In this document: one piece after another, positions 1,774 through 26,746 of the stretch
Layout: each line of letters begins with the position of its first letter
Numbering within the stretch: the first letter of the stretch is position 1
Assembly: GCA_003387805.1 (NCBI GenBank)
Contig: QGSR01000004.1
Span: 1-26,746, forward strand
DNA from: Bacillota bacterium
GTDB lineage: Bacteria; Bacillota; Limnochordia; Limnochordales; ZCTH02-B6
Direction: 5' to 3'
DNA: 26,746 bases
Position numbers and translations under genes: made by a program
The notes under the pieces: generated by a model
What the model was told of the DNA's origin: nothing
What the model saw: only the letters and a program-made list of their open reading frames with translations
The model's database searches: none

Positions 1774-4700
1774 GCGTCGCGTGGCGCCGCCTGACGCTGG
1801 CGGGCTTCGGCCGCTTCGAAAACGAGGTGGAAGTGCAGTTCGGCCCCGGCGCCAACGTGCTTGTCGCCCCCAACGAATCCGGCAAGTCGACGCTGGCCGC
1901 GGGCCTGACGGCGGTCTTGTTCGGCCTGCCCGCCACGGCCAATCCGGACGAGTTCAGCCAGGCCCGCTGGCGCAACTGGAACGAGCCGCCGCGCTTTGAG
2001 GGCACGCTGGAGTTTTCCGCGGGCGGGGAAGTGTACCGCATCCGGCGGCGCTTCGACACCCACGCGGTCACCGTCTCCCGCCGGACCGACGGCGGCTGGG
2101 AGGACGTGGTGACCGGCGAGCACAATCCGCGGGCCCGCCGTCCCAACGCCGAGTACGAGTCGTTTCTGCGCCGCACCGTCGGCGTCGCGAGCCGGGATTT
2201 GTTCACGGCCACCTTCGCCTTCACGCAGCCGCTGCCCGGCGCGGCCCGGCTGGACGAGCACGTGCAGGAGCTTCTGACGGGCGCGGGCGCGGCCCAGTTC
2301 AGCCGGGCGCTGGACGCGCTGGTCAGCGAAGGGCGCCGGCTGACCAAGTTCACGAAGAGCGCGGGCCTGAGTCCCCGCGACGCCGTCAACGACGGCGAGC
2401 TGGAGAAGGTGCAGGCCCGCATCGACGCGCTGCGGGAAGCTCTGGAGGCCAGCCGGGCGGCGGTGGACCGGAGTCAGGCCCTTCAGGAGGACATCAGCCG
2501 CGCCCAGGCCGAGCTGGCCGCGGTCCGCCGGGAGCTGGAGCAGGTAGAGGAGCAAGTCGAGGCCTGGACCCGGTGGCAGCAGCTGCGGGACCAACAGCGG
2601 GCCGCCCTGCAGCAGCAGGCGCAGCTGCAGCGGGCGTGGGACACGTACCGCTCGCTGGAGGAGGAGCTGAAGTCCCGGCGCCGGGCGCTGCAGGAGGAGT
2701 TTCCCGACCTTCTGGGCGCGCCGGAGGGCACCGGGCAGAGGCTGGAAGAGCTGGAGCAGCTGCAGTCCGCCGCGGAGGCTCTGCGCCGCCAGCTGGCCGC
2801 GGAGCTGACCACCCTCAGGCGACGGGCCGGCGAGCTGCTGGCCGAATGGCGGCAGTTCGCGGCGGAGCGGGAGCGCTGGTGGGCCCTGCGGGACCGGCTC
2901 CGCACCGAGTTCGCGCCTTTTGAGGAAGCCGGGGAGGAGGCCCGGGGCTTCTACGCTTCCTACCGCGCCGCGAAGGCCGCGTTGGAGCTGCAGGCGGAGC
3001 AGGTGCGGGCGGAGCTGCAAAGGCGGGAGGAGGCGCGAGCCGCCCTGGCCCGGGAGCGGGCCCGTTTCGCCGAAGCCTACGGCGATCTGGACGAGCTGGG
3101 CGACGACGCGGCGGCCGCCGCCGAGGAGCGCGCGCAGCTGCTGGAGGAGCGGGAGCGGCTGGTCCCGGCGCTGGACGCCGCGCGCCGGAAACGTCAAACC
3201 GAGCGCCGGCGTGACATGGCTCTCCGAGCCGCGGCGGCCGTCCTGGGCGCCGCCCTGGCGGCGCTGGCGCCTCTTGCCGACCCGATGCCCGTTTGGCTGC
3301 TGGTCACGGGCTTGTCCCTGGCGGTCCTGGGCGCCGTGGGCCTCCTGCAAACGGCCCGGGCGCCGGTTTCGACGCCCGAAATCGAGGAGCTGACGGCGCG
3401 TCTGCAGGCGGTGGACGACGCGCTGGCGGCTGAAACCCGGCTCGGTTCATACACCGGCCTCGGCATCCCCGACCTCCGCGCGCTGCGGGAACGTCTGCTG
3501 GCGCGGCGGCAGGCCGCCGCGGCGGTGGCCGAGCGCGAAGCCGCGGCGCCCCCGTCGGACCAGGAGCTGCCGGCACGGCTGGAACGGGCCGAGGCGGAGC
3601 TGCAGCGGTTTCTCGACTTGACGGCGCCGGGCCGCGAACGGTTCGGTGACGGCGTCGAGAGGGCCTATGAGCAATGGGCGGCGCTGCGGGAGGAGGAGAG
3701 GCGGACGCGGCTGGAGCTGCTGTCCTTCAGCCGCCGCCATTTCGGCGTGGAGAGCGTCACGCCTGAAAGCGCGCCGGTGGACGGGCTGGCCGCGGAAGGC
3801 ATTCCGGGAGCGTGGCGGGCCCTGGCCCGCATGCTGGAGGACGCGGGCGCGGCGCCGCCGCGGGACGTGGGCCGGCTGGTGGCCGCCGTCGCGGAGCTGG
3901 ACGACGAGCACGTGGCCAAGGCCGCCGCGGCCCGCTTCGAGGTGAGCCCCGAAGCGGAAGGCCTGACCCGGCGCACGGCCGAACTGGCCGCGCGGCTGGA
4001 GCCCGTGCTGCGGGCGGCCGGCGGCGACGTGGGCGGCGCCCGCCGCCGCTGGGCCGAATACGTGCGGCGCGCCGCCGCGGCCGATATGGTGGAGAAGGAG
4101 CTGCGGGGCGTTTTGGCCGGCCAGGGCGCCCAATCCGACGAGGAACTGCACGCCCGCGCGCTGGCCGCGGCCAACGAGGCCCTCGATGCCCGCCGCCGGC
4201 TGGCCGAGCTGGCGGAACGGCACGTGGGGCTGCCGGCGCCCGACGATGACACGGCGCCGGCGGAAGTCCGGGCCGCCATCCACCGGCTCGCCGCCCGCCG
4301 CGACGAGCTGCAGCGGCGGAAACAAGACACGGAGGAGCGGCTCTTTCAGCTGCGGGAACAGCTGGCCGACGTGGCGGGCCGCACCGTCATCAACGTGGCC
4401 GAGGCCGAGCTGGAGCTGGAAGAGCTGGAGAAGGAACGGGCCCGCCTGGCGCGGGAGGTGGACGTGGTGGCCTTGGCCTACCGGGAGCTGCGCCACGCGG
4501 CCGACGCGTTTCGCAGCGCCCATCGCGACCGGCTGGCCCGGCGGGCCGGCGAGTACTGGCGGCGTTTCACGGGCCGCGACCGCCGAATCGTGCTGGACGA
4601 AAACTTCGGCGTGCAGGTGCAGGATCCGGACGGTCCCCGGCACGGGGTGAGCCAGCTGAGCCAGGGCGCTCAGGATCAGCTGTATTTGGCCCTGCGGCTG

Positions 4701-11400: not shown

Positions 11401-12230
11401 CGAAGGTGGCGGCACTGCGGCCTTTGGCGGAGGCCGCGGGCCAGGAGGGCGCGGGGCGGCTGGCGTCCGATGACGCCGGGTTCGCACCCGTCCGCGAGGA
11501 GCTGGAGCGGCGGCTAGCGTGGCGCTACGACTGGGCGCCGGTGGTGGGCCGGCCGGCCAAGCAAGGCGTCAGCGAGCTGAAGCGGCGCTGGGATGACGCG
11601 GACCGGGACGAAAAGGCGCCGGTGGTCAAGCCCGTCATCCAGCTGGAGGAGCGGCCGGCCTTCCTGCAGGAGACCGCGCCGGCCCTGACCCCCGCGGAGC
11701 GGGGTTCGGCGGTGCACCTGGTCATGCAGCATCTGGACTTGGCGGGACCTTTGGCCGCCGGCGACATCGCGCGGCAAATCGCGGCCATGGTGGAGCGGCG
11801 GATGCTGACGCCCGAGCAGGCCGCGGCGGTGGACGTCGCGCCCATCGCGCGCTTTTTCGAGACGCCTTTGGGCCTCAGGCTCCGGTCCGGCGCGAGCCGG
11901 GTGCGGCGGGAAGTGCCGTTCATCATGGCGCTGCCCGCGCTGGAGGCGTACCCGGACCTGGCCGCCGACGCGGACGCGGCCCGGGACGAAATCGTCGTGG
12001 TGCAGGGCATCATCGACGTGCTGCTGCGGGACGGCCACTCGGTGCTTATCGTGGACTACAAAACGGACCACGTGTCCGCGGCCGCGGCGCCGCTGCGGGC
12101 CCGGGCGTACCGGAGCCAGGTGGCCCTCTACCGGCGGGCGGTGCGGGAAATCTACGGCGTGGGGGAGGTGGAGGCCCATCTGGTCTTTCTGACGCCGGGC
12201 GTGGCCGTCCCGGTGCCCGATGGCGAATAG
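8427..12230 (+). CDS. addA: ATP-dependent helicase/nuclease subunit A (AddA)
   Basis: AddA is the UvrD-type 3'-5' helicase and nuclease subunit of AddAB, with 1267 aa (B. subtilis 1232). Superfamily 1A motifs are in order: Q-motif WTPAQQ at 6-11, Walker A SAAAGSGKT with K31, TFTDAAATQM (motif Ia), GTLHSFC, DECQD with D394-E395 (motif II), GDVKQSIYRFRQAD, LRENFRSR, SVHKSKGLQFP near 805, and YVALTRAQERL near 882. The C-terminal RecB nuclease has GIIDVLL, IVDYKTD with D1210 and K1212, and YRSQVALYRRAV. The start ATG overlaps the addB stop, with AGGGAGGCGGG (8413-8421) as ribosome site inside addB. It is the last gene of the repair operon and faces the minus-strand flippase gene. Motif II is DECQD rather than the commoner DEYQD; the catalytic D-E pair is intact. 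Confidence 0.96.
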   Translation: MSGVRWTPAQQRALTTRGRHLLVSAAAGSGKTAVLVERIVRRITEEGGDIDGLLVVTFTDAAATQMRDRIREAVEERLAARPGDTHLSRQLLLLPRADIGTLHSFCLDVVRRHFYALGLDPNVRVMDEHEAHLTRLEALDLVLEEAYDRMDEDRPFARLVDGYAGQGGDQALQRLMLALHDYARSLPDPAGWLREAGRAYQRLDEATFDETPWARELQLHARVVIGRAIRLLERALSLACGPGGAAAHAETIEADIQRLEGLREAAGRSWSALAAAAEAALFPGAKRAAKDDGDPDVRTATLELRNKAKRLMQQLYDRLLSRPLAEQLAALRDLAPVAASLVEHVVRLDEAYAEIKAARGVIDFGDIEHFCLKLLDDQAVAEQIRSRYDEVLVDECQDLNGVQDEILRRIVRPPQQGGELFMVGDVKQSIYRFRQADPGLFLERYRRASPEEDAPEQRIDLRENFRSRRAIVDAVNFIFRQIMTPGAAEMAYGPEAELVFGASFGPPDPGTGRGGDVPVEVHLLEKSGAAGAAPGEPDAGGAEAEAAGAADDLLADMSSFQREAVLVARRIQQLVRGGEAVVWDRAAGRYRPARYGDIVILLRTVRHRANELIDVLARMDVPAYAELGTGYFAAAEVETMMALLAVLDNPRQDIELAAVLRSPMVGCSVDDLARIRLCRPDGDFFDAVVAAAAAPELGELQSRLAAFLGFLEQARTDARRMPLSRLVWRLLQQTGYFDYVGAMPGGRQRQANLRALHERARQFDTFARHGLARFLRFIERLREADGDLGTAPAAGEGEDVVRVMSVHKSKGLQFPIVFVVGCGRSFQDRPVHPDAAFQQHLGVGLRIVDPERRLSEPSLLHAAARARRRREELAEEMRLLYVALTRAQERLILVGADDLEAKAPGWATDRPAHVWPLPDEDLLAAGSWLDWLAPAWMRHPGAAALRELAGGDGPPLLEGDPSRWDFRVWTADDLQEAADDEGAGTGVRVSWPKVAALRPLAEAAGQEGAGRLASDDAGFAPVREELERRLAWRYDWAPVVGRPAKQGVSELKRRWDDADRDEKAPVVKPVIQLEERPAFLQETAPALTPAERGSAVHLVMQHLDLAGPLAAGDIARQIAAMVERRMLTPEQAAAVDVAPIARFFETPLGLRLRSGASRVRREVPFIMALPALEAYPDLAADADAARDEIVVVQGIIDVLLRDGHSVLIVDYKTDHVSAAAAPLRARAYRSQVALYRRAVREIYGVGEVEAHLVFLTPGVAVPVPDGE

Positions 12231-12293: not shown

Positions 12294-13673
12294 TCACCGC
12301 CGCCCCAGCTGCCGCCAGGCGGCCCAGCCGTTGAGCGCGGCCGTCAGCGCGTAGTCCACGTTCACCGCCCACAGCGTGCCGGCGATGCCGAGGCCGGGGT
12401 CGGCCGTCCAGTGGTACACCAGGACCATGCGCACCAAGGTGGTCAGCACGAAGGTGCCCAGCAGCCAGCTGGTGCGGCCCAGGGCGTGGAGCACCGAGGC
12501 GAAGATGCCGCCGGCGAAGGCAAAGGGGGCCGCCAGCCCCGCAATGCGCACCAGCGGGGCGATTTCCGGGGCGCCGTAGAGGATTTTGGGAATGGCGGCC
12601 GGCGCGGCCAGGCACGCCGCCAGCGTCAGCAAGCCCACCGCGGCGCTGCCGCCCGCGGCTTTGAAAAACAGCCGCCGCGCCGCGGCCAGGCGGCCCGCGG
12701 CCGCGGCCTCGGCCACGGCCGGCGTCAGCACCGTGGCCACGGGAAAGACCACCAGCATGGGCATGTACAGCAGCGGCAGCACCATGCCGGTCAGCTGCCC
12801 GTACAGCTCCGTGGCAGCGCCCAGCGAGTGCCCCGCGGCTATGAGCCGGCGGGGAATGAGGCCCACGTTGATCATTTGCGCGGCCGTGTTGACCAGCGTG
12901 GCCAGCCACAGCGGCAGGGCCACCGCCAGCAGCTCGCGGGCCGTGCGGATGTCGTTGACCACGACAAACACCGGTCCCGGGCGGCGTTGCCGCACCGGCC
13001 GCGGCCGGCCCGCGCCGTGCGGCGGACGGGAGGCCCGCTCCCAGGCCCACCAGCCCGACATGGCCATGGCGGTCAGCAGGCCCACCAGCTCGCCCGCGCC
13101 CAGGCCGATCACCAGGGCCGCGGCGGCGTGTTCGGCGCCACGGGCCGCCCACAGGGACAAGAGCCCGAACACGACGGGCACCCGCACCAGCTGTTCCATG
13201 ACTTGTCCCGCGGCCGTCGATTTCATGTTTTGCCGGCCTTCCGCAAAGCCGCGGAAAATGCCGGTGAGGGCCGACGGGACGAAGGCCAGGGGCAGCAGCA
13301 GGATGAGGCGCTCCGTCCGCGGGTCGGTCAGGAAACCTCGAGCCAGGAAGGGGGCCGAGGCCGCCACGGCCGCCGCGGTGGCAGCCGTCAGCACGGCGAT
13401 CAGCACCGCCGTCACGCGGCGGGCTTGGCGCACTTGATCGAAGTCGGACCGGGCCAGCCCGTCCGCGGTGAGGCGGGTCAGGGCCACCGGCAGCCTGAGG
13501 GTGGACATGGCCGACGCGAGGCGGAACACCGGCATGACCATCTGAAACAGCCCCAGCGCCTCGGGGCCCGCCCAGCGCACGACGACGATGCGGTATACGA
13601 CGCCCATGGCCCGCGTCACGGCCCCGGCGCCCATGAGCAGCAGCGCGCCTTGCAGCAGCGGACGCCTGCGCAA
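12294..13673 (-). CDS. spoVB: SpoVB/MurJ-like polysaccharide (lipid-linked) flippase
   Basis: This 459-aa, highly hydrophobic membrane protein of the MOP (MATE-like) exporter superfamily has about 12-14 predicted helices. Family features are the N-terminal GALLLMGAGAVTRAMGVVYRI, then a GPEALGLFQMVMPVF stretch, GIFRGFAEGRQNM (typical of SpoVB/YtgP/Amj-type flippases) and QMINVGLIPRRL in the second half. Members flip lipid-linked cell-wall or polysaccharide precursors; SpoVB acts in spore cortex formation, which would make this a spore former (inference). The start is TTG at 13673: GGGAGG (minus strand, 13682-13687) lies 8 bases upstream, and no better ATG exists nearby. It is somewhat shorter than B. 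subtilis SpoVB (518 aa). A basic arginine/proline-rich loop lies in the middle. It stands alone, convergent with addA and divergent from the deaminase gene. The exact paralogue (SpoVB versus YtgP or MurJ) is not certain. Confidence 0.8.
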   Translation of the reverse strand: MRRRPLLQGALLLMGAGAVTRAMGVVYRIVVVRWAGPEALGLFQMVMPVFRLASAMSTLRLPVALTRLTADGLARSDFDQVRQARRVTAVLIAVLTAATAAAVAASAPFLARGFLTDPRTERLILLLPLAFVPSALTGIFRGFAEGRQNMKSTAAGQVMEQLVRVPVVFGLLSLWAARGAEHAAAALVIGLGAGELVGLLTAMAMSGWWAWERASRPPHGAGRPRPVRQRRPGPVFVVVNDIRTARELLAVALPLWLATLVNTAAQMINVGLIPRRLIAAGHSLGAATELYGQLTGMVLPLLYMPMLVVFPVATVLTPAVAEAAAAGRLAAARRLFFKAAGGSAAVGLLTLAACLAAPAAIPKILYGAPEIAPLVRIAGLAAPFAFAGGIFASVLHALGRTSWLLGTFVLTTLVRMVLVYHWTADPGLGIAGTLWAVNVDYALTAALNGWAAWRQLGRR

Positions 13674-19337: not shown

Positions 19338-20162
19338 ATGCGTTTTGTCGTCAATGACGGATACCTGTACGTGTACGCGGACGTGGACCAACTGGCCGAA
19401 GGCGTCCGCGTGGAAGACGACGGCCGGCGGGAAGTGCAGGTGCTGGCCGTGCCCATCGAATACGGCACCAACAACGAACATATCGTGGAGCCTATGGCCC
19501 AGGGCATCGCCTCGGTGCTGGAGGCGGGCTGGCAGACGAAAAGCGCCAAGGTGCGGGACGTCATCGCCGTCACCGAGCACCCGGGCGGCGCGTACAGCTG
19601 GCTGTCGACGCTGCGCACCGGCGCGTGCGAAGGCAGCAACATCCTGGACGCGACCTTGGACATGGGCGTTCACTTCATCATGAACCACGAGGATCAGGAG
19701 CGCCACCTGGGGGCGCGGGAATACCAGGCCATCTCGCCCGAGGACGGCTTCGTTTTGGAAGTGTGCCAGACCATGCTGGAGCAGGTGTCGGTGCCGCCGC
19801 TGTTTGCCGACAGCGACCTGCTGGAGGAAGACGAGCCGTACGACGACGACTACGACGAACGGCCCACGTGGCAAGACTACGAGAAGCGCTATCAGCTGAC
19901 GACGGAGCAGCTGATGCACCGGCTGGCTTTGGGCGAAGAGGTGGCCGCGACCCGCTCCGAGTGGGAGGAACGGGCCGACTGGCTCTGGTCGTACGACGAG
20001 TACTTGCGGGAGCAGTGGCGCCGCACGGTGGTGGACCATATGACGGCGGAGCTCGCGAAGCTGAGGAAGCGCCTGGAGAACCTGGACGTGGAGCGGCAGC
20101 GCATCAGCGACGCCATCGCCCGGCTGGAGGAGCAGGGCGCGCGCTTCGCCGAGGAAAACTGA
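19338..20162 (+). CDS. Uncharacterised protein, 274 aa, with acidic linker and C-terminal coiled coil
   Basis: I do not recognise this family. The N-terminal part (about 1-160) looks like a compact alpha/beta domain opening MRFVVNDGYLYVYADVDQ, with conserved-looking stretches such as IEYGTNNEHIVEPMAQG and HPGGAYSWLSTLRTGAC. Around 165-185 is an aspartate/glutamate/tyrosine-rich linker (EEDEPYDDDYDE), then a tryptophan-rich helical part (WQDYEKRYQLT, EWEERADWLWSYDEYL) and a charged coiled coil to the end (ELAKLRKRLENLDVERQR). There is no signal peptide or membrane helix, so it is probably cytoplasmic. ATG 19338 has GGGAGGGA upstream. It has its own extended -10 promoter and a UUCG-loop terminator, so it is likely monocistronic despite lying between kbl and the nuo operon. 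Only two cysteines are present and no metal or nucleotide motif is evident. Confidence 0.75.
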   Translation: MRFVVNDGYLYVYADVDQLAEGVRVEDDGRREVQVLAVPIEYGTNNEHIVEPMAQGIASVLEAGWQTKSAKVRDVIAVTEHPGGAYSWLSTLRTGACEGSNILDATLDMGVHFIMNHEDQERHLGAREYQAISPEDGFVLEVCQTMLEQVSVPPLFADSDLLEEDEPYDDDYDERPTWQDYEKRYQLTTEQLMHRLALGEEVAATRSEWEERADWLWSYDEYLREQWRRTVVDHMTAELAKLRKRLENLDVERQRISDAIARLEEQGARFAEEN

Positions 20163-20166
20163 CGCC

Positions 20167-20199
20167 GAGGGCCCTTCGGGGCCCTTTGTGATTTTCTTT
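20167..20199 (+). terminator. Intrinsic terminator with UUCG tetraloop
   Basis: AGGGCCC (20168-20174), loop TTCG, GGGCCCT (20179-20185): a 7-bp stem closed by a C(UUCG)G tetraloop, followed by the T-rich TTGTGATTTTCTTT. It starts 5 bases after the stop of the 274-aa gene and insulates the nuo operon. Its tail is reused as part of the nuo control region. Confidence 0.85.
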
Positions 20200-20203
20200 A
20201 CAA
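20186..20203. promoter_or_regulatory. Candidate redox-regulator operator 1, overlapping the nuo -35
   Basis: TTGTGATTTTCTTTACAA is an imperfect palindrome (TTGTGA, 6 bases, TTACAA) that differs by one arm base from TTGTGA-N6-TCACAA. It covers the -35 hexamer (20197-20202) completely, the position expected for a repressor. See the second copy at 20270. On its own this site would be weak evidence. Confidence 0.5.
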
Positions 20204-20226
20204 CCGCGCGCGGCGTGTGTTATGAT
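20197..20226 (+). promoter_or_regulatory. Promoter of the nuo operon
   Basis: The -35 TTTACA (20197-20202, 5 of 6), an 18-bp spacer and -10 TATGAT (20221-20226, 5 of 6) with an upstream TG (TGT-TATGAT, extended -10) make the best sigma-A-type promoter in the window. The predicted start near 20233 leaves a leader of about 80 nt before nuoA. Confidence 0.75.
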
Positions 20227-20269
20227 CGAGGGGACCCAATCGTCACGCGAGCTTTCGGTGTGAAAGCGG

Positions 20270-20287
20270 TTGTGACCAGATTCACAA
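20270..20287. promoter_or_regulatory. Candidate redox-regulator operator 2 (Rex- or Fnr/Crp-type)
   Basis: TTGTGACCAGATTCACAA has perfect 6-bp arms and a 6-base centre. It fits the Rex operator pattern (TTGTGAA-N4-TTCACAA, one inner mismatch) and equally the TGTGA-N6-TCACA pattern of B. subtilis Fnr and of Crp. It lies about 45 bases downstream of the predicted start, where a bound protein would block rather than activate. Rex represses nuo operons in Streptomyces, so Rex is the favoured reading. Confidence 0.65.
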
Positions 20288-20314: not shown

Positions 20315-20661
20315 GTGCACCCGTACGCGCCGCTTCTGATTTTCATCGGCCTGGCGCTGCTCATTCCCGTCGCCATCTCCGTCCTTTACTCGCTGGTCAG
20401 TTCCCGACGTCCCGACCCTGTGAAGAGCACCCCCTACGAGAGCGGCTATCCGACGCCTCCCATCGAGGGCCGGTTCCCGGCCAAGTTTTACTTTATCGCC
20501 ATGCTCTTCGTCATCTTTGACGTGGAAGCAGCCGCCATGTACTCCTGGGCGGTGCTGTTGAGGGAGCTGGGCGCCTACGGATTGGCCGCCATGGCTCTCT
20601 TTTTGATTGTGTTCATTCTGGGCGACTTGTATGTGTGGAAAAAGGGAGGCTTCGACTGGAC

Positions 20662-20665
<4 letters not shown>
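20315..20665 (+). CDS. nuoA: NADH-quinone oxidoreductase subunit A
   Basis: This is a membrane subunit of complex I, 116 aa, with three helices (about 5-28, 57-80 and 86-105). Family marks are YESGYP at 41-46 (usual YESG/YECG) and [16 protein letters not shown] at 58-73 with the conserved D69 and E71 next to the quinone-channel loop. The typical LYPWA reads MYSWA here, a small deviation. The start is GTG 20315 with a weak, rather distant purine stretch (GCAGGGTGG). It is the first gene of the operon, and its stop overlaps the nuoB start (ATGA). Confidence 0.93.
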
Positions 20666-21143
<478 letters not shown>

Positions 21144-21147
<4 letters not shown>

Positions 21148-21764
21148 GCCCGAAGGAGCTGTACGCCCGGCCGTACACCGGCGGCGCGGAAGCCCAGGAG
21201 GAGATGCGCCGCACGCTGATCCCGGAGCTCCTGCGAGAGTTTCCGGACTCGGTGCGGGAGCTGGAGACGCCGTTTGACATCGCGCAGCTCGAGGTTCAGC
21301 CCGAGGCGCTGCGCGCGGTGGCCGTGCGCCTGAAGGAGCGCGGCTTCAACGTCTTGATGGACGTGGGCGGCGTCGACTACTTGCCGCGCACGCCGCGGTT
21401 TGAAGTCGTCTACCATTTCGTGGCCATTCCCGGCCTGTGGCGGCTGCGGCTGCGGGTGCCCGTGGAGGAAAGCGCTCCCGAAGTGCCGACGCTGTGCGAT
21501 CTGTGGCCGTCGGCCGAGCACGCGGAGCGGGAAGTGTGGGATCTGTTCGGCATCCGCTTCACGGACCACCCGAATTTGACCCGCATTCTGCTTCCGGACA
21601 ACTGGGTGGGCCATCCGCTGCGCAAGGACTATCCGCTGCAGGGCGAGCGGGCCAAGCACATGGGCCCCTTCTCGGTGCGCAACCGGTACCACGCGCCGAA
21701 GCGGCCGGGCGACCCGCCGGGCACGTGCGGCTTGCCGCGGGCCGATTTGGGAGGCGGGGATTGA
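21144..21764 (+). CDS. nuoC: NADH-quinone oxidoreductase subunit C
   Basis: This is the 30-kDa subunit of the peripheral arm, 206 aa, unfused to NuoD. The signature region [20 protein letters not shown] followed by the [13 protein letters not shown] stretch is clear, and [19 protein letters not shown] lies in the N-terminal half. GTG 21144 overlaps the nuoB stop (GTGA). The first 30 residues ([20 protein letters not shown]) are less conserved. Confidence 0.94.
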
Positions 21765-21765
21765 C

Positions 21766-22995
21766 GTGTCTCGCATCGTGCAGTCGGGTCAGTATCAGCT
21801 GAACGTCGATGACTTGAAGATCGCCGGCAGCGGCGACCGCATGACCCTCAGCATCGGCCCGCACCACCCGAGCACCCACGGCGTGCTGCGGGTCATTCTC
21901 GAGATTGAGGGCGAGCGCATCATCAAAGCCACGCCCGAAGTGGGCTTTCTGCACACCGGCATCGAGAAAAACGCGGAGCACCTGACGTGGACCCAGGCCA
22001 TCACGGTGCTGGACCGGATGGACTACCTGGCGCCGCTTTCCAACAACCTGGGCTACGTCCTGGCGGTGGAGAAGCTGCTGGGCATCGAGCCGCCGCCGCG
22101 GGGCCGCACCATCCGCATTTTGCTCACCGAGCTGCAGCGCATCGCGTCGCACGCCATCTGGCTGGGCACCACCGCGCTGGACATCGGCTCGCAGAGCGTG
22201 CTCATGTACGCGTTTCACATTCGCGAACTCATTCTGGACTTGTTTGAAGAAGCGTCCGGCGCCCGCATGAACCCCAGCTACTTCCGGGTCGGCGGCCTGG
22301 CCGAGGACGTGCCGGAAGGGTTCGAGGAAAAGGTCCGGGCGTTCCTGGACGAGATGCCCAAGCGGCTGAAAGAGATTCGCACCATCCTTGACAAGAACCC
22401 CATCTGGCTGGACCGGCTGAAGGGCGTGGGCGTCATCGACGCGGACCGGGCTCTGGCCCTGGGCGTGACGGGGCCCAACCTGCGCGCGTCCGGCGTGCCC
22501 TACGACGTGCGCAAGGCGTACCCGTACGCGGGCTACGACGAGTACGAGTTCGACGTGCCGGTGGGCGAGAACGGCGACAGCTACGACCGCTACCTGGTGC
22601 GGGTGCTGGAGATGATGGAGTCGCACCGCATCTGCCGCCAGGCGCTGGAGCGGCTGGAGCCCGGCCCGGTCAACGTCGACGACCGCAAGATCGTGCTGCC
22701 GCCCAAAGAAGAGCTGCGGCACAGCATGGAGGCCCTCATTCACCACTTCAAGCTGGTGTCGTACGGCTTCGACGTGCCGGCGGGCGAAGTGTACCAGGCG
22801 CTGGAGAGCCCCCGGGGCGAGATCGGGTTCTACGTCGTTTCCAACGGCAAGAACAAGCCGTGGCGAGTCCGCGTGCGCGGGCCGGCCTTCTACCACGTGT
22901 TCGCCCTGCCGGCCATGATGGAAGGGGCGCTTTTGGCGGACATGGTGGCGGTCATCGCCAGCGCGGACCCCGTGTTCGGGGAGGTGGACCGATGA
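21766..22995 (+). CDS. nuoD: NADH-quinone oxidoreductase subunit D
   Basis: This 49-kDa subunit of 409 aa is related to the large subunit of NiFe hydrogenases and forms the quinone site with NuoB. Marks: GPHHPSTHGVLRV (the quinone-site loop with its conserved histidines), PEVGFLHTGIEKNAEH, DRMDYLAPLSNN, ELQRIASHAIWLG, and the C-terminal ESPRGEIGFYVVSNG and ALPAMMEGALLADMVAVIASADPVFGEVDR. Nickel-binding cysteines of hydrogenases are absent, as expected. GTG 21766 starts one base after the nuoC stop, behind GGGAGGCGGGG. Its stop overlaps the nuoE start. Confidence 0.96.
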   Translation: MSRIVQSGQYQLNVDDLKIAGSGDRMTLSIGPHHPSTHGVLRVILEIEGERIIKATPEVGFLHTGIEKNAEHLTWTQAITVLDRMDYLAPLSNNLGYVLAVEKLLGIEPPPRGRTIRILLTELQRIASHAIWLGTTALDIGSQSVLMYAFHIRELILDLFEEASGARMNPSYFRVGGLAEDVPEGFEEKVRAFLDEMPKRLKEIRTILDKNPIWLDRLKGVGVIDADRALALGVTGPNLRASGVPYDVRKAYPYAGYDEYEFDVPVGENGDSYDRYLVRVLEMMESHRICRQALERLEPGPVNVDDRKIVLPPKEELRHSMEALIHHFKLVSYGFDVPAGEVYQALESPRGEIGFYVVSNGKNKPWRVRVRGPAFYHVFALPAMMEGALLADMVAVIASADPVFGEVDR

Positions 22996-23600
22996 GCGCC
23001 GAAAACGGACGGGCCGGCGCGGAGCGCGCCATGGAGAACGGCGCCGCGCAGGCGGCGCCGTGGTGGGAGCGCCGGGCCGAAGACGTGGAGCGGCTGATCG
23101 GCAAGTACCCCAACTCCCGGTCGGCCATCATGGGGCTGTTCTGGATGGCCCAGGAAGAGCGCGGGTACGTGTCCGACGAGGATCTGAACTGGATTGCCGA
23201 CAAGCTGGGCTTGACGCGAGGGTACGTCGATTCCACCATCACGTTCTACTCGCTCTACCATCTGCAGCCCGTGGGCAAGTACACCATCATCGTGTGCAAC
23301 AACGTCATCTGCGGGCTGAAAGGTTCCGAAGGGTTGGTTCAGGAGCTGGAGCGGCTGCTGGACGTGAAGGTGGGCGGCACCAGCGCGGACGGCCTGTTTA
23401 CGCTGCAGACGACGGGCGAGTGCATCGCGGCCTGCGACGGCGCGCCGGCGCTGCAGATCAACCAGGAGTACTTCCACAAAGTGACGCCCGAGCGGGCCAA
23501 GCTCATCATCGAGCGGCTGCGGGAAGGGGCCGAGCTGGAAGCGTTGTCGGAGGAAATCGGCCTGACCAAACCGGGCGCCGTCTGGGAAGAGGGTGACTAA
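22992..23600 (+). CDS. nuoE: NADH-quinone oxidoreductase subunit E
   Basis: This 24-kDa thioredoxin-fold subunit of the NADH module, 202 aa, binds the 2Fe-2S cluster N1a. The ligands are C102-x4-C107 (VCNNVIC) and C144-x3-C148 (ECIAAC). The N-terminal 25 residues (MSAENGRAGAERAMENGAAQ) are low-complexity and longer than usual; a second ATG at 23031 gives a more standard length. ATG 22992 overlaps the nuoD stop (ATGA). Confidence 0.94.
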   Translation: MSAENGRAGAERAMENGAAQAAPWWERRAEDVERLIGKYPNSRSAIMGLFWMAQEERGYVSDEDLNWIADKLGLTRGYVDSTITFYSLYHLQPVGKYTIIVCNNVICGLKGSEGLVQELERLLDVKVGGTSADGLFTLQTTGECIAACDGAPALQINQEYFHKVTPERAKLIIERLREGAELEALSEEIGLTKPGAVWEEGD

Positions 23601-23602
23601 AG

Positions 23603-24901
23603 GTGGCCCACCCGCTGGAAATGCGCGTGCTGACCCAAGGCATCGGCGAGGTCGATCTGACGCGCATTGAAAACTACGAGGCGCAGGGCGGCTACGCCGC
23701 GCTGCGCAAGGCGCTGAAGCAGATGACGCCGCAGGACGTGCAGGCGGAAGTGAAAAAGGCCAATCTGCGCGGGCGCGGCGGCGCGGGCTTCCCGGCCGGC
23801 GTCAAGTGGGGCTTTCTGCCCGACGACGGCCGGCCCAGGTACCTGGCGTGCAACGGCGACGAAAGCGAGCCGGGCACGTTCAACAACCGCATGCTCATCG
23901 AGTTCAACCCGCACCTTTTGATCGAGGGCATTCTCATCGCCGCCTACGCGGTGCGGGCGTCCAAGTCCTTCATCTACCTGCGGGGCGAGTTCAAGAAGGG
24001 CGCGCGGGTTTTGGAGGACGCCATCGAGCAGGCGCGCGCCAAAGGCTACTTGGGCGACAACATTCTCGGCACCGATTTCTCCCAGGAAATCGTCGTCCAC
24101 CGGGGCGCGGGGGCTTACATCTGCGGCGAGGAAACGGGCCTGCTCAGCTCGCTGGAAGGGGGCCGGGGCGAGCCCCGCAACAAGCCGCCGTTCCCGGCGG
24201 TGGCGGGCCTGTACGGCATGCCCACCGTGGTCAACAACGTGGAGACGCTGTGCAACGTGCCCTTCATCGTGGAGCGGGGCGCGGACTGGTTCTTGTCCAT
24301 CGGCACCGAAAACAGCCCGGGCACGAAGCTGTTTTCCGTCAGCGGCATGGTGCGGCGGCCGGGCAACTACGAGCTGCCTCTGGGCATTACCATGCGGGAG
24401 CTCATCTTCGACGTGGCCGGCGGCCTTCTCCCCGGGCGCACGCTGAAGGCGGTGCAGCCCGGCGGCGCCAGCTCGCCGGTGCTGCTGCCCGAGCACCTGG
24501 ACCTGCCGCTGGATTTCGACACCGTGCAGAAGGCGGGCTCCATTCTCGGCACCGCCGGCGTCATGGTGTTCGACGAGACCGTCTGCATGGTGCGGACGGC
24601 GCTGTACTACGCGGACTTCTTCTCCCACGAGTCGTGCGGCCAGTGCACGCCGTGCCGGGAGGGGACCGCGTGGACCGCGCGGCTGCTCCGCAAGATCGAG
24701 CGCGGCCAAGGCACCATGGAGGACGTCGAGGTCCTCAAGAGCCTGGACACGCTCATGTCCGGCACGACCATTTGTCTGCTCTCGGACTTCTCCAAGACGT
24801 TCTTGATGTCGGTGCTGAAGCATTTCCCGGAGGAGTTTGAGGCCCACATCAAAGGGCGCGCCTGTTTGGCGGAGCAGCCGCAGGAGGTGCGCAGCGCGTG
24901 A
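23603..24901 (+). CDS. nuoF: NADH-quinone oxidoreductase subunit F
   Basis: This is the FMN- and NADH-binding 51-kDa subunit, 432 aa, where electrons enter complex I. The FMN/NADH glycine loop is GRGGAGFPAGVKW at 57-69, followed by CNGDESEPGT at 83-92 and ICGEETGLLSSLEG. The N3 4Fe-4S ligands are C345, C348 and C351 (SCGQCTPC) plus C391. GTG 23603 follows the nuoE TAA by two bases. Its stop overlaps the nuoG start. Confidence 0.97.
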   Translation: MAHPLEMRVLTQGIGEVDLTRIENYEAQGGYAALRKALKQMTPQDVQAEVKKANLRGRGGAGFPAGVKWGFLPDDGRPRYLACNGDESEPGTFNNRMLIEFNPHLLIEGILIAAYAVRASKSFIYLRGEFKKGARVLEDAIEQARAKGYLGDNILGTDFSQEIVVHRGAGAYICGEETGLLSSLEGGRGEPRNKPPFPAVAGLYGMPTVVNNVETLCNVPFIVERGADWFLSIGTENSPGTKLFSVSGMVRRPGNYELPLGITMRELIFDVAGGLLPGRTLKAVQPGGASSPVLLPEHLDLPLDFDTVQKAGSILGTAGVMVFDETVCMVRTALYYADFFSHESCGQCTPCREGTAWTARLLRKIERGQGTMEDVEVLKSLDTLMSGTTICLLSDFSKTFLMSVLKHFPEEFEAHIKGRACLAEQPQEVRSA

Positions 24902-26709
24902 GCAAGCTCGTCAAAGTGACGTTCGACGGCATAGAAGTTGAAGTGCCCGAAGGCATGGGCCTGGTGGAGGCGGCGGCGCAGGCGGGCATCGAAATTCCGG
25001 TGTTCTGCCACCACCACAAGCTGGATCCGGTGGGCGTCTGCCGCATGTGCCTGGTGGAGGTGGAGGGCCAGCGCAAGCCGGTCACCGCCTGCACCATGAA
25101 GGCCGCCGACGGCTTGGTGGTCCGCACCGAGACGGACCTCATCCGGCACCTGCGCCAGGGCGTGCTGGAGTTTCTCCTGCTCAACCACCCGCTGGACTGC
25201 CCGGTGTGCGACAAAGGCGGCGAGTGCCCGCTGCAGGACAATACGTTCAAGTACGGGCCCACGGCCAGCCGCCTGACCATGGCCAAAGTGCGCAAGCGCA
25301 AAGCGGTGGACATGGGCAACTTCATCATTTTCGACGAAGAGCGCTGCATTTTGTGCCGCCGCTGCGTGCGCTTCGACGGCGAGATCGCCCTGGAGGGCAA
25401 CCTGGTGGTGGGCCAGCGGGCCCACGAGGCCATCATCACCACCACGGACGGCCAGGACTTTGACTCCTACTTCAGCGGCAACACCATCGAGCTGTGCCCG
25501 GTGGGCGCGCTGACGTCGAAGAACTATCGGTTCCAGGCCCGGCCGTGGGACCTCTCCAGCGTCCCGTCCATCTGCACCGGCTGTTCCGTCGGCTGCAACG
25601 TGCGCCTGGACTTCCGCTTCGGCGAGCTGGTGCGCCTGGTGGCCCGGGAGCATCCGGACGTGGACAACGGCTGGCTGTGCGACCGGGGCCGCTTCAACTA
25701 CCGCTACATCCACGGCGAGGAGCGCCTCACCCGGCCGCTGATGCGCAAGGGCGGCCAGTTCGTGGAAGTGAGCTGGAGCGAGGCGCTGATGGAAATCGCC
25801 AGCCGCCTGCGCACGGCCCGCCGGGACCACGGCGCCGGCAGCATCGGCTTCATCGGCGGCGGCCGGCTGACCAACGAAGAGGCGTACCTGTTCCAGAAGC
25901 TGGCCCGGGACGTGGTGGGCACGCCCAACGTCGACCACCGCGTGGGCGGACAGCAGGTGGCGTCCTTGGCCGAATACTCGGGCCGCATTGCCGACATCAA
26001 CGACGCCGACGTCATCTTGCTGGTGGACGTGCTGCCGCAGGAGCGCATCCCCGTGGTGGACCTGCGGGTGCGCCGGGCGGCCCGGCGCTGGGGCGCCAAG
26101 CTGTTCAGCGTGGGCGCGGCCAAGCCGCCCTATCGGGTGCCCCATACCCACATCGCCGCGGCGCCGGGGACCACCGCGGCGGTGCTGCGGCAGGCCGCGG
26201 GCGCCCCCGGCGACGGCGGACCGGTCCAGGAACTGGCCGACGCCGTGGCGGGCGCGAAAAAAGTGGTCGTCGTCTGGAACGGCGACGACGCGTCCGTCGG
26301 CGCGGCGCTGCTGGAGGCGGCGGCCGCGTGGGGCGCCGGAGGGGAGCGGCACGTCAAGGTGCTCATTCCCGGCGAGCAGGCCAACAGCCGCGGCGCCGAG
26401 GCCATGGGCGTGCGGCCGGACATGAAGCCGGGCTTTGCGCCCGTGCCCGCGGACGAGGCGGGCCTGGACACCCGGGCGATGCTGGAGGCCGCGCGAGACG
26501 GCCGGCTGCAGGCGCTGTATCTGGCCTCGGCCAACCTGGCCGGCACCTTCCCCGACGAGCTGCTGGTGCGGGAGGCGCTGGAGAAGGTGCCGTTCCTGGT
26601 CGTGCAGGATCTGTTCCTGACCGAGACGGCCAAGTACGCCGACGTCATCTTGCCGGCGGCCGAGTTCCCCGCCAAGAGCGGCTCGTACACGAACTTTGAA
26701 GGCCGCCGC
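24898..26709 (+). CDS. nuoG: NADH-quinone oxidoreductase subunit G, 3' end missing
   Basis: This iron-sulfur subunit of the peripheral arm is partial at the contig end, with about 604 codons visible. N-terminal 2Fe-2S ligands: C37, C48, C51, C65. N5 cluster: H97, C101, C104, C110. N4 cluster: C150, C153, C156, C200. A further set C226-x2-C229-x3-C233 with C261 corresponds to the accessory N7 cluster, which only some bacteria keep (for example E. coli and Thermus). A molybdopterin-oxidoreductase-like domain follows (about 275 on), with GFIGGGRLTNEEAYLFQKL and VILPAAEFPAKSGSYTNFEGR. GTG 24898 overlaps the nuoF stop. The frame stays open to the last base, but codons after 26709 are adapter and poly-G, so the residues after NFEGRR are not real. 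Confidence 0.95.
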
Positions 26710-26746
26710 CCGTCCCTGGGGGGGGGCACTGACCCCGCGGGGGGGG
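26710..26746. other. Sequencing debris: degraded Nextera end plus poly-G
   Basis: The NuoG homology stops at NFEGR. The first eight bases (CCGTCCCT) match the Nextera mosaic end CTGTCTCT at 6 of 8, with the same T-to-C error at the sixth base as the left-end copy read in the same direction. A run of 9 G, a CACTGAC resembling the read-1 side adapter, and a final 8 G follow, typical of two-colour Illumina read ends. The match is weaker than at the left end. Confidence 0.7.

Follow-up and report, generated by a model that had tools for sequence, protein, structure and literature searches.

Known Rex operators and the layout of the nuo leader

The closest described systems are the Rex operators of Streptomyces avermitilis and Staphylococcus aureus. 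In S. avermitilis, a published study places Rex operators at nuoA1-N1, rex, cydA1, atpI, and wblE, gives footprints of TTGTGACCTGCTTCACAT at nuoA1 and TTGTGCACGCGTTCACAA at rex, locates the wblE site at +108 to +135, and describes Rex as regulating its own operon, rex-hemAC1DB (PMC5355995). The S. aureus sites are of the form TTGTGAA-W4-TTCACAA and lie in or near promoters, and the targets named there include ldh1, pflB, and adhE (PMC2883068). The window, which is the entire 26,746-nucleotide stretch of DNA that we analyzed, carries the beginning of a complex I operon preceded by two palindromes of the related form TTGTGA-N6-TCACAA.

All genes of this operon lie on the plus strand. The first, nuoA (20315..20665, PF00507), begins with a GTG codon at 20315 and is followed by nuoB, nuoC, nuoD, nuoE, and nuoF (20635..24901; PF01058, PF00329, PF00346, PF01257, and PF01512), the open reading frames of which overlap, with the true start of some lying further in, and by nuoG (24898..26745; NADH-G_4Fe-4S_3, Fer4_Nqo3, and Molybdopterin), which reaches the window end. 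The nuoA leader comprises the 152 bases between the end of the upstream open reading frame at 20162 and the GTG at 20315, and its sole promoter-like site, TTTACA-N18-TATGAT (20197..20226, plus strand; shuffle mean of 0.1), would place the transcript start near 20233. Site 1 (TTGTGATTTTCTTTACAA, 20186..20203, plus strand) has one arm mismatch, is centered near −38, and lies over the −35 box TTTACA at 20197–20202, while site 2 (TTGTGACCAGATTCACAA, 20270..20287, plus strand) has perfect arms and is centered about +46 from the putative start. An earlier note on this DNA had given both palindromes at these positions, with these arms and with site 1 over the −35 box, as we find them here, and its 152-base gap and 84-bp center-to-center spacing are both correct on recounting. 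For the upstream gene, a terminator-like hairpin is weakly predicted (20167..20195, plus strand; one found against 0.5 expected), the T-rich tail of which overlaps the left arm of site 1; the right arm holds the −35 box.

If up to three mismatches are allowed, finding two matches in the whole window is no surprise (2.53 expected). Their actual quality, in contrast, is unusual: that of site 2 was reached by none of 2000 dinucleotide shuffles of the nuoA leader and that of site 1 by none of 5000 shuffled versions of the 107 bases preceding site 2, in a test that is partly circular for this window because the motif was itself derived from it. Across the window's own genome (G000; 2.37 Mb in 454 contigs, 91% complete, listed contamination 3.4%), the palindrome occurs at up to two mismatches in 18 places versus 4 for the reversed pattern. 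Site 2 is the only perfect copy; the three one-mismatch copies are site 1 and two places on contig C210, one at 12058 in an ndh leader and one at 13558, upstream in the same gene cluster. Against the Rex consensus TTGTGAA-N4-TTCACAA, site 2 has one mismatch and site 1 has two.

Like the S. avermitilis operators, the sites described here are 18-bp inverted repeats that occur in TTGTGAC and TTGTGC variants, the former in the window and the latter in order-level relatives, and that have a complex I operon as target, a putative one here (PMC5355995). They share with the S. aureus sites the same inverted repeat and a location in or near promoters, but the S. aureus paper has 0 mentions of nuo (PMC2883068). 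Whereas the Streptomyces nuoA1 site is described as lying over the −35 region, the conserved site here lies at about +46, a downstream position for which the wblE site at +108 to +135 provides a precedent (PMC5355995).

Conservation of the palindromes in relatives

Forty relatives were searched, four of which (G001–G004) belong to the same family and, together with G000, give five family genomes. Site 2 is perfect in the nuoA leader of all five, and none of these genomes has a second perfect TTGTGA-N6-TCACAA place. Its left arm reads TTGTGAC or TTGTGAT and never the Rex-type TTGTGAA, a point against Rex. The promoter, as TTTACA-N17/18-TATGAT, is likewise present in all five, and the distance from site 2 to the −10 box is 41–43 bp in every case, against a spread of 22 to 36 for its distance to the start codon. 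We note that G001 and G004 are not independent, since they belong to one genus and have identical sites. The position downstream of the −10 box, held at a conserved distance, argues for a repressor rather than an activator, as the earlier note had favored. At the position of site 1, the four family relatives show 4, 4, 6, and 6 mismatches with only the −35 TTTACA in common, and site 1 is found among the five family genomes only in the species of G000. The comparison of the nuoA upstream region in relatives that the earlier note had called for thus has a mixed outcome, with site 2 conserved (5/5) and site 1 absent from all four relatives.

Related matches extend beyond the family. In six order-level genomes, the best nuoA-leader match has two mismatches and a left arm of TTGTGC, TAGTGC, or TCGTGC. 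The top promoter guess puts the match at about +72 to +86 in G006, G009, G011, and G013 and the promoter guess for G008 puts it at about +94. For G005, the guesses listed first give about −18, and another with the same score gives about +96. Three genomes from other families of the class have best matches with three mismatches, located at about −42 to −44 (or at −37 if a lower-scoring guess is taken). Shuffled leaders gave a match as good with a frequency of ≤0.002 in 11 of 14 genomes and of 0.04–0.07 in the three other-family genomes of the class. Among the six distant named loci (L050–L055), the best match has one to three mismatches in four, and two have none at ≤3 mismatches; the leaders read were those of 10 of 54 loci (L046–L055), with 128 bases of leader present in L053.

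Candidate regulators of the nuo operon

We consider it very probable that site 2 is an operator of the NADH-sensing repressor Rex, which is the likeliest reader of the nuo palindrome, over Crp/Fnr. A rex gene is present in all 17 genomes searched (G000 and 16 relatives). The G000 protein encoded on contig C82 has both Rex Pfam domains and aligns with solved Rex proteins over residues 5–210 of 213 (E 4e-40), and we take this rex to be the genome's own copy. A second rex (L030) lies on contig C90, which is 99.65% identical to the sister species G002 over 3147 bases and which we for this reason take for contamination of the assembly by that species; the C82 copy is about 77% identical to G002. 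Two rex paralogues in G000 were accordingly rejected. The proposal of a redox-type Rex operator at nuo is in keeping with the rex gene in the genome, the conservation of site 2, the Rex-like variants of its arms, and the similar sites before some NAD- or ferredoxin-linked enzymes elsewhere, and the check for regulator genes that the earlier note had called for found both kinds, rex and fnr/crp, in the genome.

From the sequence we infer Rex binding, the direction of control, a roadblock, and the transcription start against which it is placed, as follows. When NAD+ is dominant, an NADH-free Rex dimer would sit at site 2, about 46 bp past the nuo start, where it would block RNA polymerase soon after initiation; the position of site 2 suggests a roadblock that is lifted as NADH rises. 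As NADH accumulates, Rex would bind it and release site 2, whereupon the cell would produce complex I, including the NuoE, NuoF, and NuoG subunits of the NADH-input module, and NADH would fall again. Site 1, if used, would work as the nuoA1 operator of Streptomyces does, which covers the −35 region. That it is a working second operator is a tentative reading, which we regard as rather doubtful, and at best it would serve this species alone as an additional operator across the −35 box. Nothing is new about the regulator, the motif, the target, or the mode; the additions are the lineage and, at nuo, a site placed downstream. Control of complex I by Rex, known from Streptomyces, would thereby extend to a deep, mostly uncultured Firmicutes lineage, probably near Limnochordia to judge by the names of the relatives, and site 2 would offer a simple prediction of the conditions under which these bacteria make complex I. 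A literature search for Limnochordia with Rex surfaced only work on cytochromes P450, and the main text of PMC11456536 has 0 occurrences of the word Rex, although a published description may nonetheless exist.

Autoregulation of rex is usual but not universal. The C82 rex leader has no palindrome at ≤4 mismatches, and no self-site was found in the family, the relatives of which give only one three-mismatch match (G004); this counts against Rex and differs from the self-regulated rex described for Streptomyces (PMC5355995). Apparent sites 5′ of rex in G006, G011, and G013 were rejected, as by eye they fall inside the end of the preceding coding gene. In G015 and G020 (L144 and L152; 57 bases before 1506), a two-mismatch site ending GTTCACAA overlaps the rex −10 box, as if rex were regulating itself there.

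The palindrome core fits Rex and Crp/Fnr alike. Crp/Fnr-type sites have the form TGTGA-N6-TCACA, so that core and spacing are shared, and a regulator of this family could repress from site 2 or act at site 1. G000 encodes three Crp/Fnr proteins, two of which have recognition helices that look CRP-like by eye, and the sensor domain was found in 12 of 13 relatives searched. A TGTGA-N6-TCACG site also precedes a copper-oxidase gene near one Crp/Fnr gene, and the ndh leader of G024 carries the Crp-like ATGTGAAAAGGATCACAT. However, G003, listed as 98% complete, has 0 matches to the sensor domain PF00027 and keeps the perfect nuo site together with one rex. Its best HTH_Crp_2 match, though 0.6 bits above the cutoff, is partial, covering 34 of 70 positions (22–55), and could be another kind of helix-turn-helix. 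Nor do the positions favor such a reader, site 2 falling past the promoter and the center of site 1, at about −38, being off the usual Crp/Fnr position of −41.5. We therefore reject on the evidence of G003 the Fnr/Crp reader that the earlier note had also entertained, as far as a general reader is concerned, and consider a Crp/Fnr-family regulator at nuo improbable. On contig C222 of G000 (L032), the TGTGA-N6-TCACG palindrome lies at about 4444–4461 and precedes a multicopper-oxidase gene, by eye resembling nirK, with two Crp/Fnr genes close by; the palindrome is possibly a target of the products of these two genes.

The earlier note had further proposed that the two sites lie on one face of the DNA and could be bridged by a looped repressor. 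The 84-bp spacing does equal eight turns of 10.5 bp, and site 1 surpassed every one of its 5000 shuffles, but the place of site 1 has 4–6 mismatches in all four family relatives, so there is no pair there. The 84-bp pair and its looping are unsupported for this reason. Rex is not known to loop DNA. Looping as a conserved design was rejected, and we judge a loop at this locus to be highly improbable. Least probable of all is that the conserved palindrome works as a leader RNA hairpin instead of a DNA operator, since, although it falls within the putative transcript and would allow a stem of 6 bp, the fold of the nuoA leader is no stronger than that of shuffled sequences (z 0.07), the leader has no Rfam match at E 0.1, and the arms are invariant in all five family genomes, with the order-level TTGTGC or TAGTGC variants breaking a pair; an RNA element here was rejected by fold and Rfam.

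Other Rex-type sites, the second complex I operon, and the ndh leader

Having set Rex above these alternatives as the reader of site 2, we turn to similar sites elsewhere; the places inspected were those taken as loci L207–L234, with redox enzymes picked by eye for Pfam. In nine order- and class-level genomes, the pattern TTGTGMN5TTCACAW has ten perfect places, two of them before nuoA (G005 and G008). Four others, at 1501–1518 of L214, L215, L216, and L217, precede a pyruvate:ferredoxin oxidoreductase (POR) subunit gene in 4/4 f3 genomes, and the remaining four (L211, L212, L219, and L220) precede neither nuo nor POR, one of them near a carboxymuconolactone decarboxylase-type gene. One-mismatch sites precede an aldehyde dehydrogenase in G003 and, among those picked by eye, an aldehyde dehydrogenase in G011, a NuoF-like subunit in G015, and, at a distance of about 200 bp, a Glu/Leu dehydrogenase in G009. 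Among the matches listed at ≤3 mismatches, the Rex consensus has 20, 31, 14, 25, and 25 places in G000–G004 versus 7, 13, 14, 13, and 16 for the reversed control, an excess of no more than about two-fold in four of the five genomes, among them G002 with none at all (14 vs 14), and a larger one in G000 (20 vs 7). The closeness of these counts to the control disfavors a large Rex regulon in the family, and the scan at three mismatches was set aside as too noisy to use.

G000 has a second complex I-like operon on contig C247 (L235, 4688–14635) with NuoA–D matches and, on this contig, no NuoE, NuoF, or NuoG match. Neither its nuoA leader nor the second nuoA leaders of the four family relatives have a Rex-type site at ≤3 mismatches. 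Of the two complex I operons of G000, site 2 thus singles out the one equipped with the NADH-input module. One- or two-mismatch sites before the second nuoA in G015, G020, and G024 speak against a general rule.

The NDH-2-like ndh gene (Pyr_redox_2) has two facing Rex-type sites in its leader in G000 (C210, L029, 12009–12078, minus strand), where they are 21 bp apart, and in G002 (C8, L196, 2684–2750, minus strand), where they are 20 bp apart. At the RNA level, the facing sites form a hairpin of 18 bp in G000 (z −7.1) and 17 bp in G002 (z −6.2) relative to shuffles, with a U run directly behind it in the former and three bases behind it in the latter. This hairpin may be a by-product, because two facing copies would form one anyway, and the candidate readings of the element are an operator pair, an attenuator, or both. 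Among the 11 ndh leaders read, a third site-bearing leader is that of G024, with the Crp-like ATGTGA-N6-TCACAT palindrome given above, and the other eight have no site; most of these siteless ndh genes share only 33–44% identity and may be no true equivalents, and for G003 the match is split in two. A broader notion seems to us unlikely, namely that both types of NADH dehydrogenase in this species are under Rex control by way of site pairs, spaced 84 bp at nuo and 21 bp at ndh, with the ndh inverted repeat serving as DNA operator and RNA attenuator at once. In the same G000 cluster, a one-mismatch palindrome, TTGTGATACTTGTCACTA (L029, 13558–13575, minus strand), is found some 110 bp ahead of the gene with which the C210 cluster of CBS-domain gene, short-chain dehydrogenase gene, and ndh begins.
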